A stretch of DNA of 42,843 nt, from contig LBST01000010.1 in NCBI GenBank assembly GCA_000991135.1, positions 1 through 42,843 of the forward strand. The letters run 5' to 3'. Below, piece by piece: positions 12,992 through 37,362 of the stretch; within the stretch, counting starts at the first letter, position 1; each line of letters begins with the position of its first letter. Below the pieces are notes generated by a model. It was given only the letters and a program-made list of their open reading frames with translations. It did no database searches and was not told the origin of the DNA. Position numbers and translations under genes: made by a program. Source of the DNA: Candidatus Roizmanbacteria bacterium GW2011_GWC1_37_12. GTDB taxonomy: Bacteria > Patescibacteriota > Microgenomatia > UBA1406 > GWC2-37-13.

Positions 12992-14001
12992 CTTAGGTTG
13001 CCACCAATTGTCGAAACAAAGAGAGGCAATTCTAAGGATTGTCCTTCGACTAATGGCGTTTTTTTAATTGACGACAAGGGGTTTATGATTGACGTCGGTA
13101 TTGATATCAGTTTTTCTAACAATTTAGTCAGAGCAGGAAAGTATGAAATATTATTAATTAGATAAAGGTTTGACAATTTACGGTTGTCAATAAATTTTTT
13201 AATCTCGACGACGAATTCATGGAGCAGTGGCGAGATGATTGTTTCGACAGGATAGCTTGAAGGATGATCGATAAAGTAGTTTTTCAAAATTTCTACGGCT
13301 TTTTTGCTGTCGGTATCGGTGTTGACTTGGATTTCTTTTAAAAACAATTGGTAACCCAGAGAAAGATTGTGGTTTTCTTTGAGAATGGGAATGGCGTTTT
13401 CAAAATATGAAAGATTGCTAGAATTGAAAGAAAAATTGGCTAAAAGAAAATTTCCTTGGTTTGTAGATCGATAGTTTTTATAAAAATTACTGATAAATCT
13501 TGAATTAGCTGAAAGTTCTGTTTCAACAGACTCTGGAATTAAACCAGCAAGTTCGACAGTTGTTTGAATTTTTTCGATTAGTTTTTTCGGCGCGGCCACA
13601 ATCAGAATTAAGATTTTTTTTTCAGCCTTATACTCCTCGATGATCTCTAAATCAATATTTGTTTCTTCAATAGGCATCGGTATGAATTGGTCGGCCTGAT
13701 ATTTGATCGCCGAAATTAATTCTTTTTCGTTAAGGTAGGGCATCGTCAGAATCTGGCTGTAGGTGAGAGAATCAGAAATAACTACGTTGACGTTTTTTTT
13801 AGTTATTTTTGAACTGGAGACTAAATTGCTAATCGAACTGGCTTGATTTTCTAAATTTTTTTCCAGTTCAGTCGCATAAAAATATTCTCCGGTATCAATT
13901 TTTCCAAGATTAGAAACCTCGAAAATGTCACCGATTTTCTTCCCGTCGACGACTTTAGTGTGTTTCTCTCCAATATCGAGACAAAAATAATTATCAGCCA
14001 T
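12988..14001 (-). CDS. pilM: PilM, actin-like pilus assembly ATPase
   Basis: The 337 residues are PilM/FtsA-like: CLDIGEKHTKVVDG at the N-terminus (phosphate 1), TMPYLNEKELISAIKYQADQFIPMPIEETNIDLEII (a strong PilM signature), then ILIVAAPKKLIEKIQTTVELAGLIPESVETE. The phosphate-2 and adenosine motifs (GGNLR at the end) are weak. PilM is a cytosolic ring component that holds the PilN tail. TATATT ends six bases before the ATG at 14001, so this is a leaderless first gene of pilM-N-O. Confidence 0.88.
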   Translation of the reverse strand: MADNYFCLDIGEKHTKVVDGKKIGDIFEVSNLGKIDTGEYFYATELEKNLENQASSISNLVSSSKITKKNVNVVISDSLTYSQILTMPYLNEKELISAIKYQADQFIPMPIEETNIDLEIIEEYKAEKKILILIVAAPKKLIEKIQTTVELAGLIPESVETELSANSRFISNFYKNYRSTNQGNFLLANFSFNSSNLSYFENAIPILKENHNLSLGYQLFLKEIQVNTDTDSKKAVEILKNYFIDHPSSYPVETIISPLLHEFVVEIKKFIDNRKLSNLYLINNISYFPALTKLLEKLISIPTSIINPLSSIKKTPLVEGQSLELPLFVSTIGGNLR

Positions 14002-31073: not shown

Positions 31074-32960
31074 TTATATTCTATTGAGTTCTTCTTTTGC
31101 GTCTTGTTCAGTGATGTTTTTTTCGGATGATGAATAATAGAAACGTAATGTCAGCTTGTTTTCGAAAAGAGTGACAACTTCGATTTTTTGCAATAGTTTC
31201 GACCCAAATGCCTTTTTCCGAATAACCTCATAGGTTAGTTGAGGTGAAAGATTAAAAGTTTTATCTAGTTTGATAACAGCATAGGGGTTAGTCGGCTGAT
31301 ATTTAGAGAACTGTCTATATCTGTCAATCAACCATTGAAGATCGATTTCGATTATAAAGACGCCGTCACGTTCAATAATCTCTGGTAGGGATAATTCATG
31401 AATTATCTCTACGTTTAATTCCCTATATAACGCCTCGATAATTCCTTTCAAATCAAAGTAATCAGTATTTACAGCGACTCCTAACTTATAAGTTTCTTCT
31501 GGAAGCTCATTCTTTCTAGGTAGATAAACCTTAGCAATTTCAAAGAATTTCAAAACATCCTTTTTCCCTGTATTATCATCAACATTTTTATAAAGAGAAG
31601 GTAATAATGTTTGTCTCATATATTCGATTTCTTCAGAAATCGTACTAGATAGTTTTAGATGTTCTTCAATCTTCAATTTTGAATTTTGAATCATTTCCTT
31701 CGATATCATCGAGTAGTTGATGACTTCGTTGAGTCCCAGATGCTTCAGAAAATATTTAACTTTTGAGTTTATGAAAAATAGTTTTTCAAATTCTTTTGGC
31801 TGCTCTACAATAGCAGGAGGCTGTAAGTTATTTGGAAGCTTGTGATAGCCGTAGATTCTTGCCACTTCTTCGACAAGGTCTTCTGGAATAGAAATATCGT
31901 TACTTCTCCACGAAGGAATTTTTAGTTGTACCATCTTTGCGCGGTCGCTGTCGAGATGGTATATTTCAAATCCCAGATTCTTTAAAACATTATCTATATC
32001 TTCTTTCTCAATTTTTACTCCAATAATTTTTTCAAAAATTTCGTAATCTGTCTCCACGGCTTTATATTTACTTTTTTCAGAATTTATATCATACAAAGAA
32101 CTGATAACTTTTCCATTTGCAATTTTTTCGTAAAGTTCGATTCCCTTGTCAAAAGCCATCCTGGCCGCTTTGGGGTCAGGATTTTTTTCATTGATGGAAG
32201 CGGCTATGGTTCTTATCCCTAATTTCATTGAAGTTCTTCTGATTGCCTTCGGATCGTTGGTCTCGATCCAAAAGACGATTTTTTTGGTCTCGTCAGTGAC
32301 AACGCTATTTTCCAATCCCATTATTCCTGGTAAATCAATTATTCTTCCTGTACCGTCGTCAAAAACTACATCTCGATTATCAAGTTGATATTCTTTTTTG
32401 TCCAAGGTAACGATCTTTTCACCTTTTTTTGCATAACGAATAAGGATTTTTCCAGTTTTGATTCGATCAAAATCAAATACATGAGCCGGGTGGCCTGTTT
32501 CAAGCATGACATAATTTGTCACATCTATTAGGTTGTTAAGCGCTCTGATTCCGCAGTTTTGCAGTCTTTCTTTTATATATGTAGGCGATTTTCCTGTTTT
32601 TACATCCATAACAACTGCCAGTTTCCTTGGGCAAAGATTATCATCATCAATAATTTTTAATTCCGTCAATCCCCTTCCACCCCTTCCACCTCGGAGGTGT
32701 AAGGAGGCTAAATTCTTTTTTAATTTAGCTTTTTTGTCGAAACGAGGTAGGATTGCCGCAGCTTCTCTTGCAATTCCAACAACCGAAGCATAGTCAATTC
32801 TATTTGAAATTACTTCAATATCGTAGACCCAGTCGTTCTTAACTTTAGTAACTGATTCGATTGATGGACCGCATAAGGATAGATATTCGCTAATTTCTTT
32901 AGGAGTAGCATCCGTATCTAAATATTCAAGTAGCCAATTGTGAGTTATTTTTATATTCAT
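31074..32960 (-). CDS. pheT: Phenylalanyl-tRNA synthetase beta chain, short form
   Basis: The 628 residues are far below the usual 790 or so. The N-terminus (MNIKITHNWLLEYLDTDATPKEISEYLSLCGPSIESVTKV) runs straight into NDWVYDIEVISNRIDYASVVGIAREAAAI, so the EMAP-type OB-fold (B2 domain) between them is missing. The B3/B4 region (RALNNLIDVTNYVMLETGHPAHVFDFD), B5 (GYHKLPNNLQPP) and a C-terminal FDX-ACB anticodon-binding domain remain. Repeat-derived inserts are NLASLHLRGGRGGRG (residues 83-97) and VEIIHELSL (517-525). It pairs with PheS to charge tRNA-Phe. It follows pheS by one base. Confidence 0.92.
   Translation of the reverse strand: MNIKITHNWLLEYLDTDATPKEISEYLSLCGPSIESVTKVKNDWVYDIEVISNRIDYASVVGIAREAAAILPRFDKKAKLKKNLASLHLRGGRGGRGLTELKIIDDDNLCPRKLAVVMDVKTGKSPTYIKERLQNCGIRALNNLIDVTNYVMLETGHPAHVFDFDRIKTGKILIRYAKKGEKIVTLDKKEYQLDNRDVVFDDGTGRIIDLPGIMGLENSVVTDETKKIVFWIETNDPKAIRRTSMKLGIRTIAASINEKNPDPKAARMAFDKGIELYEKIANGKVISSLYDINSEKSKYKAVETDYEIFEKIIGVKIEKEDIDNVLKNLGFEIYHLDSDRAKMVQLKIPSWRSNDISIPEDLVEEVARIYGYHKLPNNLQPPAIVEQPKEFEKLFFINSKVKYFLKHLGLNEVINYSMISKEMIQNSKLKIEEHLKLSSTISEEIEYMRQTLLPSLYKNVDDNTGKKDVLKFFEIAKVYLPRKNELPEETYKLGVAVNTDYFDLKGIIEALYRELNVEIIHELSLPEIIERDGVFIIEIDLQWLIDRYRQFSKYQPTNPYAVIKLDKTFNLSPQLTYEVIRKKAFGSKLLQKIEVVTLFENKLTLRFYYSSSEKNITEQDAKEELNRI
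31385..31412. repeat. Palindromic element family D, copy in pheT
   Basis: The 28-base unit centres on GATAATTCATGAATTATC. It is homologous to recG 23622-23649; the paired change C-G to T-A keeps the palindrome. The minus strand encodes VEIIHELSL (517-525), matching recG VGTIHELSL in frame. Confidence 0.85.
32683..32711 (+). repeat. Palindromic element family A, copy 3 (inside pheT)
   Basis: The unit CTTCCACCTCGGAGGTGTAA plus GGAGGCTAA differs from the RAYT-flanking copies at two bases. A partial duplicate CCCCTTCCAC precedes it (32671-32680). It encodes NLASLHLRGG in the minus frame of pheT, at the seam between the N-terminal region and B3. Confidence 0.88.
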
Positions 32961-32961
32961 A

Positions 32962-33984
32962 TCAAAATTGTTCGAGAAATCTTATATCTCCTCCGTATAG
33001 ATCTCTAATCTCATCCAGTCCCAATTTCATCATAAGGCATCTTTCCGGTCCAAAACCGAATGCCCATCCGGTATAGATGTTAGGATCAATGCCGCCTGCC
33101 CGTAAAACCTCCGGATGGACCATACCGCTTCCTCCTAGTTCGAGCCATCCGGATTTGCAGACTCGGCACTTTTTCCCATTAATTTTAGTCGTTCCTTTGC
33201 AGATGTTGCAATTAATGTCTGTTTCAAATGACGGCTCTGTGAACTGGAAGTGATGTGGTCGAAGTCTTATTTCGCGATCAGGTCCAAAGAACTGTTTGGC
33301 AAAAAAATCTATTGTTCCTTTGAGGTGGGTTATGTTTATTCCTCGATCAACACACAAGCCTTCAAACTGGTAAAACATCGGCGCGTGGGTGGCATCCCAG
33401 TTTCGACGGTAACACTTGGCGATATTGATCATTCTGATAGGAGGCGTTTTTAGCCTTCTCATTTCTCTATTCTGTCCTGAAGATGTATGAGGTGTTAAAA
33501 CCATTCTTCCGAATTTTTCGTGCTCGGGATAGTCTATAAAAAAAGACTCAAAGTCGTCGCGGGCAGGATGTCCTTTGGGCATGTTGAGAGCTTCAAATGA
33601 AAAATATTCCCATTCTACTTCAGGGTAAGAAACGCGAATAAATCCTAATTTTTGAAAGATTGAAGCGATCTCCTCTATCGTATAGGTTATTGGATGAAGG
33701 CTTCCTTTTGGATAAATTTTTCCTGGTAAAGTTGCATCGAAGAATTTTTCTGATTTTTTTCCAGCAAGTTCTTTTTTCTTTACTTCGATTAAACGTTTAA
33801 TCGAAGTTTTCAATTTATTTACTTTTTGGCCGTAATCTTTCTTTTCATCTGACGGGATATCTTTGATTTTTTTGAGAAGATCGTTTATTACTCCGTTTCG
33901 ACCTAAATATTTTACTTCCAATTGCGAAAGTTTATCTGAAGAATCAGTCAAGTTTATTTCTTTTTCGTAAGTTTTTGAATCCAT
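32962..33984 (-). CDS. pheS: Phenylalanyl-tRNA synthetase alpha chain
   Basis: The 340 residues match PheS: an N-terminal coiled coil (SDKLSQLEVKYLGRNGVINDLLKKI), then HPITYTIEEIASIFQKLGFIRVSYPEVE, DDFESFFI, TPHTSSGQNREM, the class II motif 2 NIAKCYRRNWDATHAPMFYQFEGLCVDRG, the Zn-like cluster CNICKGTTKINGKKCRVCKSGW and the motif 3 region GWAFGFGPERCLMMKLGLDEIRDLYGGD. A TATAAT box ends seven bases before the ATG, so it may have its own promoter in addition to operon read-through. Confidence 0.95.
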   Translation of the reverse strand: MDSKTYEKEINLTDSSDKLSQLEVKYLGRNGVINDLLKKIKDIPSDEKKDYGQKVNKLKTSIKRLIEVKKKELAGKKSEKFFDATLPGKIYPKGSLHPITYTIEEIASIFQKLGFIRVSYPEVEWEYFSFEALNMPKGHPARDDFESFFIDYPEHEKFGRMVLTPHTSSGQNREMRRLKTPPIRMINIAKCYRRNWDATHAPMFYQFEGLCVDRGINITHLKGTIDFFAKQFFGPDREIRLRPHHFQFTEPSFETDINCNICKGTTKINGKKCRVCKSGWLELGGSGMVHPEVLRAGGIDPNIYTGWAFGFGPERCLMMKLGLDEIRDLYGGDIRFLEQF

Positions 33985-34588: not shown

Positions 34589-35131
34589 TTATTTTCGTTT
34601 AGCAACCACAGACCGGATTACTCTACCTTCCTGCTTGGGAGGCTTGGAGACGTTGACTTCTCCAAGGCTTACGATGTATCGATTCATCAGGTCGAAAGCC
34701 ATCTGCTTTTTTCCCATTTCCCTGCCTCTTAAAGTCAAATTGATTCTTACTTGGTGACCCTGCTTCAAAAATTCTTTACCTTTATTTTCGAGTCTTGTAA
34801 GGTCTCCTTGAGCGATAAATAAGCTTAGACTGATGTCTTTTGTCGTACTTTTCTTGATTCCCTTCTTTGCTTCTTTAGCTTTTTTTTCCTCCTGATAAAG
34901 AAATTTTTTGAAATCAATTATTTTTGCAACAGGAGGTTGGGCTTTTGGAGCAATCAAAACCAAATCTAATTCTAAGTCTTGAGCCTTTCTTAATGCCTCC
35001 TCTTTTGTTAACACTCCTATTTGTTCACCTTTGTCATTAATGACTCTTAGTGTTGGTGAGTTAATCCGATAGTTGATATCGTAATACTTACGGGGTTGAT
35101 ATTTTGGTCTTGGTCTATAAAAACTTCTCAA
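34589..35131 (-). CDS. infC: Translation initiation factor IF-3
   Basis: The 180 residues fit IF-3. The N domain starts at about 20 (INYRINSPTLRVINDKGEQIGVLTKEEALRKAQDLELDLVLIAPKAQPPVAKIIDFKKFLY), then the C domain (DISLSLFIAQGDLTRLENKGKEFLKQGHQVRINLTLRGREMG). The start is TTG at 35131, inside the last codons of thrS (overlap 17 bases), with no Shine-Dalgarno. IF-3 penalises non-AUG starts. E. coli infC uses AUU for autoregulation, so a rare start here would fit the same control, although the real start could be elsewhere. Confidence 0.93.
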   Translation of the reverse strand: MRSFYRPRPKYQPRKYYDINYRINSPTLRVINDKGEQIGVLTKEEALRKAQDLELDLVLIAPKAQPPVAKIIDFKKFLYQEEKKAKEAKKGIKKSTTKDISLSLFIAQGDLTRLENKGKEFLKQGHQVRINLTLRGREMGKKQMAFDLMNRYIVSLGEVNVSKPPKQEGRVIRSVVAKRK

Positions 35132-36866
35132 TTTGAGATTTTAGATTTGAAATAAACTGGTTAATTGTTAATTGTCCTAAATCCTTTCCATCGCGCGTAC
35201 GGACAGAACATTGTTCTGTCTCTACCTCTTTCTCTCCAATTATAATCATATAAGGAATTTTTTGCAAGGTGGCTTTTCTGATCTTTTTTCCAAGAGTTTC
35301 ATTATCCTGGTTAACCTCGATTCTTAATCCTGCTTCTTTTAAAGTCTTTTCGACTTTCAGAATATAATCTTTAAATTTATCTGAAACCGGCAATATTGCG
35401 ATTTGAACAGGCGCAAGCCATAAAGGAAATGCTCCGGCATAATGTTCTATCAAAAAAGCCATTGTTCTCTCAAAGGCTCCGATTGATGCCCGATGGATAA
35501 CAACAGGTTCTTCTTCCTTTCCTTCGTGATTAATAAATCTCAGTTCAAATCTTTTAGGCATGACGAAATCATATTGGACAGTAAATGCGGTATCTTCTTT
35601 TCCGTTGACGTTCTTCATCTGAACGTCGATTTTTGGACCGTAAAAGGCCGCTTCGTTTTCAGCCTCATAATATGGTACTTCTTGGTTTTTTAAAACTTTT
35701 CTTAGAATACTTTCGGCATAGTCCCACATTTTGTCATCCTTATAGTATTTTTTTGAATCTTTTCTGTCTCCTAAAGATAGCCTAAATCGGTAATCTTTTC
35801 CAGCCTTAAGGCCAAACGCTTTATTTATGAAAGAAATAAGGTCTAAAACTTTTTTTATTTCTTCCTCTGCTTTTTCTTTTGGAGTGATGATATGGGCGTC
35901 TGACAGTAAAAATGTTCTAACTCGAATCAGTCCTGTTAGTTCGCCGCTTTTTTCATAACGGAATTGTGGCGAAATTTCTGCAAAGCTGACAGGCATTTCG
36001 TGATAAGATCTTGGTCGACTTTTAAAAAGGGCAAAGTGGTGAGGACAGGTCATCGGCCGCAAAATAAGTTCTTCATCATCGACAACCATCGGCGGGTACA
36101 TCGTTTCTTTGTAATATGGATAGTGACCAGAAGTTCGATATAGATCAACTTTGGCGATAGGCGGCGTAGATACATGGGAATACCCTCTTTTCAGCTCTTC
36201 GTCAACTATAAATCTTTCCAATATCCTTTTTATTGTTGCCCCTTTTGGAGTTAAAAGAGGCAGACCTTTTCCGACTAAATCAGAAAATACAAAAAGGTCA
36301 AGATCCTGACCTAATTTTCTATGATCTCTTTTTTTTGCTTCTTCTAGTCTTATAAGGTGTTCTTTTAGTTCTTTTTCCGATGGCCAGACTGTTCCGTAGA
36401 TTCTTGTTAACATTTTGTTTTTTTCACTGCCCCGCCAGTAGGCTCCGGCTACCGAAAGAAGCTTAAAATTCCTTAATTCTTTTGACGGGTTTTCTACGTG
36501 GCCCATTTTACAAAGGTCAAGAAAGTCTCCGGGGTCATTCGTCTGGAGCTTTTTTCCTTGTTTGGCAAATTCTTTGGCCATCTCAACTTTATATTTATTA
36601 TCTTTGAATAATTTTTTCGCTTCAACAAGCGTTACTTCTTTGAAGGTAAATTTTTGCCATCTTGGGAGGATCTCCCTCATTTTAGCTTCTATTTTCTGGA
36701 AGTCCTCTTCTGAAATACTCCATTTGCCCATGTCAAAATCCTGATAAAATCCATTTTCTATGGCAGGACCAATCGCATTTAGTGCACCTGGGTATAACTG
36801 CTTCACCGCATGGGCTAATAAATGGGCGCACGAATGTCTTAAACTGTCTAGATTTTTGTTATCCAT
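35115..36866 (-). CDS. thrS: Threonyl-tRNA synthetase without TGS domain
   Basis: The 583 residues are shorter than the usual 640 because the N-terminal TGS domain is missing. The start MDNKNLDSLRHSCAHLLAHAVKQLYPGA is already the editing-domain region (HxxxH). Class II motifs follow: motif 2 RYEKSGELTGLIRVRTF, the zinc ligands in TCPHHFALFK, and motif 3 HRASIGAFERTMAFLIEHYAG. The C-terminal anticodon-binding domain is WLAPVQIAILPVSDKFKDYI to GQLTINQFI. It charges tRNA-Thr. The gene is preceded by a leader peptide with three Thr codons and a terminator (36903-36998). It is the first gene of thrS-infC-rpmI-rplT-pheS-pheT. Confidence 0.95.
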   Translation of the reverse strand: MDNKNLDSLRHSCAHLLAHAVKQLYPGALNAIGPAIENGFYQDFDMGKWSISEEDFQKIEAKMREILPRWQKFTFKEVTLVEAKKLFKDNKYKVEMAKEFAKQGKKLQTNDPGDFLDLCKMGHVENPSKELRNFKLLSVAGAYWRGSEKNKMLTRIYGTVWPSEKELKEHLIRLEEAKKRDHRKLGQDLDLFVFSDLVGKGLPLLTPKGATIKRILERFIVDEELKRGYSHVSTPPIAKVDLYRTSGHYPYYKETMYPPMVVDDEELILRPMTCPHHFALFKSRPRSYHEMPVSFAEISPQFRYEKSGELTGLIRVRTFLLSDAHIITPKEKAEEEIKKVLDLISFINKAFGLKAGKDYRFRLSLGDRKDSKKYYKDDKMWDYAESILRKVLKNQEVPYYEAENEAAFYGPKIDVQMKNVNGKEDTAFTVQYDFVMPKRFELRFINHEGKEEEPVVIHRASIGAFERTMAFLIEHYAGAFPLWLAPVQIAILPVSDKFKDYILKVEKTLKEAGLRIEVNQDNETLGKKIRKATLQKIPYMIIIGEKEVETEQCSVRTRDGKDLGQLTINQFISNLKSQIEKFL

Positions 36867-36902
36867 GTTATTTATTTTAAACTATTAATAAGATTGTAGC
36901 AT

Positions 36903-36925
36903 AAAAAAACCCTCCTCTCGGAGGG
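36903..36925 (-). terminator. Attenuator terminator of the thrS leader
   Basis: On the minus strand CCCTCC, GAGA tetraloop, GGAGGG and seven T follow each other (stem complement of 36920-36925 with 36910-36915). It lies 37 bases before the thrS ATG. Its left arm CCCTCC can instead pair with GGAGGG at 36948-36953 to form the antiterminator. Confidence 0.88.
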
Positions 36926-36953
36926 ATAATCTATACTACAACACTACCCCTCC

Positions 36954-36998
36954 TTAACAGGAGACAGTAGTTGTAGCAACAATAATTTCTTTTTTCAT
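36954..36998 (-). CDS. Leader peptide of thrS attenuator, 14 aa
   Basis: The ORF encodes MKKEIIVATTTVSC and stop TAA. Three consecutive threonine codons (ACA ACT ACT, 36974-36966) sit in region 1 of the attenuator. TATCAT ends six bases before the ATG, with TTGAAT 16 bases further up (37027-37032), giving a leaderless leader peptide. It is too short for routine gene callers. Confidence 0.85.
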   Translation of the reverse strand: MKKEIIVATTTVSC

Positions 36999-37046: not shown

Positions 37047-37262
37047 TTAGTGGGTTAAAAAATAAAAAATAGCGCCTCCAGCGCCACAAGCAGCTGTTAG
37101 ACCGAGAAGTAGTTTTATAGCAGTTTTTTTAACATCTTTACTTAATATATGTAGAGCATTATAATCGCTATCAGGTCCACTGCTGACAAGACGAGTTGCA
37201 TTTTTACCGCGATTAAACGATTTAAATAAAAAAACTTTTCTTCCAGGTTTTTTGTCGGGCAT
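37047..37262 (-). CDS. Unknown small membrane protein, 71 aa
   Basis: The N-terminal 50 residues are basic and polar (MPDKKPGRKVFLFKSFNRGKN). A single helix lies at the end (AIKLLLGLTAACGAGGAIFYFLTH), so it is tail-anchored. I do not recognise it. AT-rich DNA with TACTAA lies upstream. Confidence 0.6.
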   Translation of the reverse strand: MPDKKPGRKVFLFKSFNRGKNATRLVSSGPDSDYNALHILSKDVKKTAIKLLLGLTAACGAGGAIFYFLTH

Positions 37263-37362
37263 ATATTATTTAGTAAGTATTTTACTTCTTCTTCTTCTTC
37301 TTGTCAAGACAATCTAAGTTTACGTGGCCTGTCTGATGGACATCTAAACGAACTAAAATTTG

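Follow-up and report, generated by a model that had tools for sequence, protein, structure and literature searches.

The window (the whole 42,843-nucleotide stretch of DNA analyzed here, from Candidatus Roizmanbacteria bacterium GW2011_GWC1_37_12) carries on its minus strand thrS, which encodes threonyl-tRNA synthetase (35115..36866, with its ATG at 36866; TIGR00418, 640.6 bits), followed by infC (IF-3; 34589..35131), which overlaps thrS, and then by rpmI (L35; 34363..34605), rplT (L20; 34008..34361), pheS (32962..33984), and pheT (31074..32960). This is the order thrS-infC-rpmI-rplT-pheS-pheT named in the original prediction, with rpmI (41.4 bits against a cut-off of 51.2) and pheT (377.3 bits against 402.7) scoring just under their NCBIfam cut-offs. 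Upstream, between a tRNA-Val gene and the leader described below, lies a small ORF (MPDKKPGRK..., 37060-37307, minus strand) that has a near-consensus promoter and a terminator-like hairpin of its own at 37087-37069. At the Rfam gathering score, the only matches in the whole window are the 16S rRNA and two tRNAs, and the scan returned no Thr_leader, other leader-peptide family, or T-box.

Directly upstream of thrS, also on the minus strand, a candidate promoter P1 (37005..37032) consists of TTGAAT (37032-37027), a 16-nt spacer, and TATCAT (37010-37005), and its -10 box ends 6 nt before the ATG of a 14-residue leader ORF (36954..36998). The ORF encodes MKKEIIVATTTVSC (also given as ATGAAAAAAGAAATTATTGTTGCTACAACTACTGTCTCCTGTTAA) and includes a run of three Thr codons, ACA ACT ACT (36966..36974), that is kept before thrS in relatives. 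At the sequence level, this fits trp-type attenuators, which are marked by a short ORF in the leader whose consecutive codons match the controlled gene. The Thr codons fall inside region 1 (CTACAACTACTGTCTCC, 36960..36976), as originally predicted. Region 1 pairs with region 2 (GGAGGGGTAGTGTTGTAG, 36936..36953), which begins immediately 3' of the stop codon and can pair either with region 1 as a protector or with region 3 as an antiterminator. Region 3 (ATTATCCCTCC, 36920..36930, with its CCCTCC core at 36925-36920) can alternatively pair with region 4 (GGAGGG, 36910..36915), the 3' arm of an intrinsic terminator that ends in a T7 run (36903..36909). The leader ORF, region 2, and the terminator CCCTCC-GAGA-GGAGGG-T7 (36925-36903) all lie exactly where they had been placed before. 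Further downstream, TATGCTACAA (36894..36903) is complementary to TTGTAGTATA (36941-36932) and could form an outer helix round the terminator in read-through RNA. This helix is significant in the window and its close relatives, and at p < 0.05 in 9 of 37 leader-bearing loci (see below); since significance fails across the whole 37-locus set, we dropped it as a general feature.

The 104-nt leader has a predicted folding energy of -38.1 kcal/mol, compared with -20.8 ± 2.9 kcal/mol in shuffled sequences (z = -6.0, with 0 of 200 shuffles as good). We also positioned a ribosome in turn on each Thr codon and on the stop codon and folded the RNA that it did not cover, taking its leading edge to be 11, 13, or 15 nt past the first base of the A-site codon. 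Under all three footprints, region 2 captures region 3 in a helix of about -18 kcal/mol, whichever of the three Thr codons holds the ribosome; with the ribosome at the stop codon or absent, region 3 pairs with region 4 in a hairpin of -11.8 kcal/mol. The predicted folds contain the mutually exclusive 2:3 and 3:4 helices and the 1:2 protector of trp-type attenuators, and the geometry is also of that type, in that region 2 is freed by a stall at the Thr codons and hidden by a ribosome that has reached the stop codon. Among dinucleotide shuffles of the window's own upstream region, a terminator with a region 2 and an adjoining ORF stop with at least one Thr codon was found in 3 of 2000, and with at least two Thr codons in none of 2000; the window has three.

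Based on sequence, conservation, geometry, and modeled folds, we consider it very likely that this element is a trp-type ribosome-mediated transcription attenuator that senses tRNA-Thr charging and controls thrS, and probably its operon. In the proposed mechanism, RNA polymerase would begin on the leader ATG or next to it, and MKKEIIVATTTVSC would be translated from this leaderless end. Under a shortage of Thr-tRNA, the translating ribosome would stall at ACA ACT ACT and cover region 1, leaving region 2 (GGAGGGGTAGT...) free to pair with region 3 (ATTATCCCTCC), so that the terminator would be blocked and thrS transcribed. When Thr-tRNA is ample, the ribosome would reach the stop codon and cover region 2, the 3:4 hairpin would form, and transcription would stop in the T run with a product of about 95 nt. 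In the absence of translation, the 1:2 helix would form and the terminator would form again. The original prediction of a classic Thr-tRNA attenuator applied to the whole operon is strongly supported in its core by comparison and simulated folding; its reach over the operon is better taken as a proposal, given a possible second promoter downstream of the attenuator.

The same prediction supposed that the genome probably lacks Thr synthesis. This is contradicted by adjacent genes for aspartate kinase, homoserine dehydrogenase, and aspartate-semialdehyde dehydrogenase (lysC-hom-asd), and by a protein scoring over the threonine synthase cut-off (a thrC homologue). A GHMP-type homoserine kinase was not found in the genome, whose assembly is 94% complete. 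With lysC-hom-asd and the threonine synthase homologue encoded, Thr auxotrophy is not evident, and we rejected it as the reason for the attenuator.

By ThrRS, several of the nearest relatives likewise bear the name Roizmanbacteria, a group of Microgenomates in the candidate phyla radiation (CPR). The comparison with relatives used 200 non-redundant thrS upstream regions, mostly from Microgenomates, and a detector that requires three elements together: a terminator, a region 2 able to base-pair with the 5' arm of that terminator, and a short ORF stopping beside region 2. It then counts each amino acid over the last 13 codons of the ORF. Thirty-seven of the 200 upstream regions qualified with at least two Thr codons, compared with 0 of 1000 shuffled upstream regions. 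Four or more Thr codons among the last 13 were found at 30 loci, and as many of any other amino acid at two loci at most. Approached from the peptide side, a terminator with a region 2 followed 30 of 36 short ATG ORFs with a Thr cluster and 9 of 340 others (p = 1.7e-30). Half of the six misses (L049, L063, L128) appear intact on inspection by eye. The trp-type arrangement is conserved at the 37 detected loci and at these three more. In minimum-energy folds, 32 of the 37 loci form the antiterminator in one or more Thr-stalled states and the terminator with the ribosome at the stop codon; the full switch is absent from these folds in the other 5. The leaders use all four Thr codons (ACT 69, ACC 64, ACA 31, ACG 4), and this third-base variation fits the amino acid being what is conserved. 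The last Thr codon usually lies 10-20 nt, and the stop codon usually 2-9 nt, upstream of region 2. The original prediction had looked to relatives for conserved Thr codons and covarying stems. The Thr codons are indeed conserved, and regions 2, 3, and 4 shift jointly between clades (GGAGGG/CCCTCC, GCGGGG/CCCCGC, GGGGAGGT/ACCTCC), but pairwise covariation is nearly nil among near relatives, where it is uninformative because the segments are almost invariant. Region 2 was also considered as a required Shine-Dalgarno site holding the terminating ribosome (the 16S rRNA of the window ends in CACCTCCTTT), and this was rejected, as other clades have GCGGGG or GCGTGG instead. Over half of the thrS genes in the family of the window lack a recognizable leader directly upstream.

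In 20 of the 37 leaders, the ATG follows the end of a -10 box by 6-8 nt, the 6-nt spacing of the window being the mode, and many relatives have consensus TTGACA/TATAAT promoters. With this spacing, transcription would begin on the ATG or right next to it, and the leader is probably translated leaderless. Other gene starts in the window often show such spacing too, and Shine-Dalgarno-like sequences are rare at them (1 of 37). At two loci (L126, L130), the A that opens the Thr leader ATG also belongs to the CCA end of an upstream tRNA-Val gene, and tRNA 3' processing may there create the 5' end of the leader mRNA.

A further -10-like box, TAAAAT (36874..36879, minus strand), sits downstream of the attenuator, 7 nt short of the thrS ATG, and suggests a second, leaderless promoter, P2. 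P2 may supply a basal, attenuator-independent transcript and may let thrS bypass the attenuator, leaving only partial control. Boxes of this kind are common at gene starts here, and they also suit a different reading, in which the hairpin is a terminator of the upstream genes only, thrS is transcribed from its own leaderless promoter, and the Thr ORF is incidental; two loci (L011, L044) do retain the terminator and have lost the Thr leader. However, the small upstream gene comes with a terminator-like hairpin itself, relatives keep Thr-rich leaders in which Thr stands far ahead of every other amino acid, and the stop and Thr codons hold narrow distances to region 2, so that we regard this reading as improbable.

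The scaffold of the thrS attenuator is also found before other genes. In the window's own genome, just two hairpins fit the form CCTCC-loop-GGAGG-NN-T4, one before thrS and one before hisS. The latter (L003; G000:C2, hairpin 13279-13300) has the same CCCTCC/GGAGGG terminator and lies about 200 nt upstream of hisS; its leader, MKIFCLSNGVHHFLPNGG, contains two His codons, and the leader ATG follows a -10 box by 6 nt. A stricter version of the hairpin pattern occurs in 34 of 72 family genomes, and a reversed control pattern in none. Within the family, Thr leaders precede thrS, as well as thrC with thrS downstream (for example, the Thr-rich leader of L303 before thrC), and His leaders precede hisS or racemase-like genes, with hisS next in several. 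Trp-rich leaders with the scaffold precede trpE (L283, L307), and Cys leaders with the scaffold precede cystathionine genes (L295, L357, L362), leaders with CCC or CTCTT being found before cystathionine beta-synthase-like and gamma-synthase-like genes. Among 46 hisS upstream regions of the family, His is the commonest leader amino acid, yet only 6 qualify, and the His leader is thus patchy. We lean toward a joint reading in which leaderless leader-peptide attenuators form a regulon in this CPR lineage. All would be built on one scaffold (stop codon, GGAGGG, CCCTCC, GGAGGG, T run), and each would carry codons suited to its gene: Thr before thrS and thrC, His before hisS, Trp before trpE, and Cys before cystathionine genes. 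On this reading, the scaffold has been copied or re-evolved repeatedly and alternates with T-boxes. The shared scaffold with exchanged codons is a newer part of this account than the single thrS element. Leader codons alone may in this way predict the regulated amino acid of unannotated genes. Several genes downstream of the scaffold have no NCBIfam or Pfam family match, including one at 940-2 (minus strand) behind a scaffold-bearing leader that ends in SSFYYYQLLYGG (Tyr-Tyr-Tyr; L359); this gene is possibly Tyr-regulated.

In E. coli, thrS is under autogenous control, with ThrRS binding a tRNA-like structure in the leader. The gene order is the same here, and the enzyme could in principle act on its own leader in this lineage too. 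We consider this highly improbable, as ribosome position accounts for the terminator and the mutually exclusive helices of the leader, and as one scaffold with swapped codons serves His, Trp, and Cys genes, unlike an enzyme-specific operator.

T-boxes are the other recurrent element at this position. The core TGGAACC is present in 56 of the 200 thrS upstream regions, compared with 5.5 expected from shuffles, most of these T-box calls being made on the core motif alone; at the Rfam gathering score, there was no T-box in 60 loci scanned, and four loci have covariance-model matches below that score at the core. A Thr leader and a T-box core never occur together (0 loci, p ~1e-6). The window's own family has Thr leaders and no T-box cores, and the sampled families f9, f14, f5, and f25 have T-box cores without the leader. 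Short ThrRS genes sampled from Parcubacteria-like genomes have no Thr leaders and some T-box cores. The presence of two independent tRNA-charging sensors at one position is good evidence of what the leader senses. A divergent T-box in the window, with uncharged tRNA-Thr binding the leader RNA directly, would fit the cores before thrS in many relatives and the four sub-threshold matches there, but is extremely improbable, because the window's thrS upstream region has no TGGNACC core, the window has no T-box match, and no locus has both elements. On a ThrRS tree, at least 22 changes between leader and T-box are needed, compared with 27-33 among the five shuffles listed, and such change counts do not distinguish transfer of the synthetase from a swap of the regulator. 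With thrS under a leader peptide or a T-box across one class, these genomes form a natural series in which the exchange of tRNA-charging readouts is traceable.

Enterobacterial thrL-thrABC (with a Thr/Ile leader) and trp attenuators have a leader peptide of regulatory codons, 1:2, 2:3, and 3:4 helices, and an intrinsic terminator, with the stop codon within the 1:2 hairpin. The attenuator before thrS shares the leader peptide, the three helices, the terminator, and the position of the stop codon, and on all testable features it belongs with the trp-type ribosome-mediated attenuators. It differs in that its target is a synthetase rather than biosynthesis, Thr alone is sensed, and the leader is probably leaderless. 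In E. coli, pheM-pheST has an attenuator between rplT and pheS, with a leader peptide of the synthetase's own amino acid. The gene cluster and the pairing of a synthetase with a leader of its own amino acid are shared, whereas in the window the gap between rplT and pheS is about 23 nt, and the attenuator lies before thrS instead. In Streptomyces lividans, a leaderless thrL leader (MKRVRPFLETTPGFVPAR) with two Thr codons has been proposed before thrS, with no clear intrinsic terminator (PMC8079986); a leaderless Thr leader before thrS is common to both, but S. lividans belongs to another phylum and its leader has two Thr codons only. In bacilli, a hisS leader peptide takes the place of a T-box (PMC2965389). 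A cognate-codon leader before a synthetase, with T-boxes in relatives, is common to both cases, the amino acid being His and the phylum Firmicutes there, and Thr here, with the exchange spread across many families of one class. Our search, which covered mainly open literature, found no account of leader-peptide attenuation in this phylum. The findings indicate that CPR bacteria with genomes of about 1 Mb keep a feedback that needs tight transcription-translation coupling, on leaderless mRNAs.

Two further sets of leaders were observed among the relatives. At two loci (L041:5441-5560 and L045:5396-5512), Phe-rich leader peptides (MITQTYFTFFFFTSH... and MQTQRFFFCFFTSH..., respectively) with terminators and weak Rfam Phe_leader matches lie about 1.2 kb downstream of a thrS that bears a T-box core. 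Before thrS in two Dojkabacteria loci (L068, L070) and one WWE3 locus (L055), short ORFs with Thr codons lie inside or beside a terminator-like hairpin, an arrangement that is possibly a simpler, two-segment attenuator.
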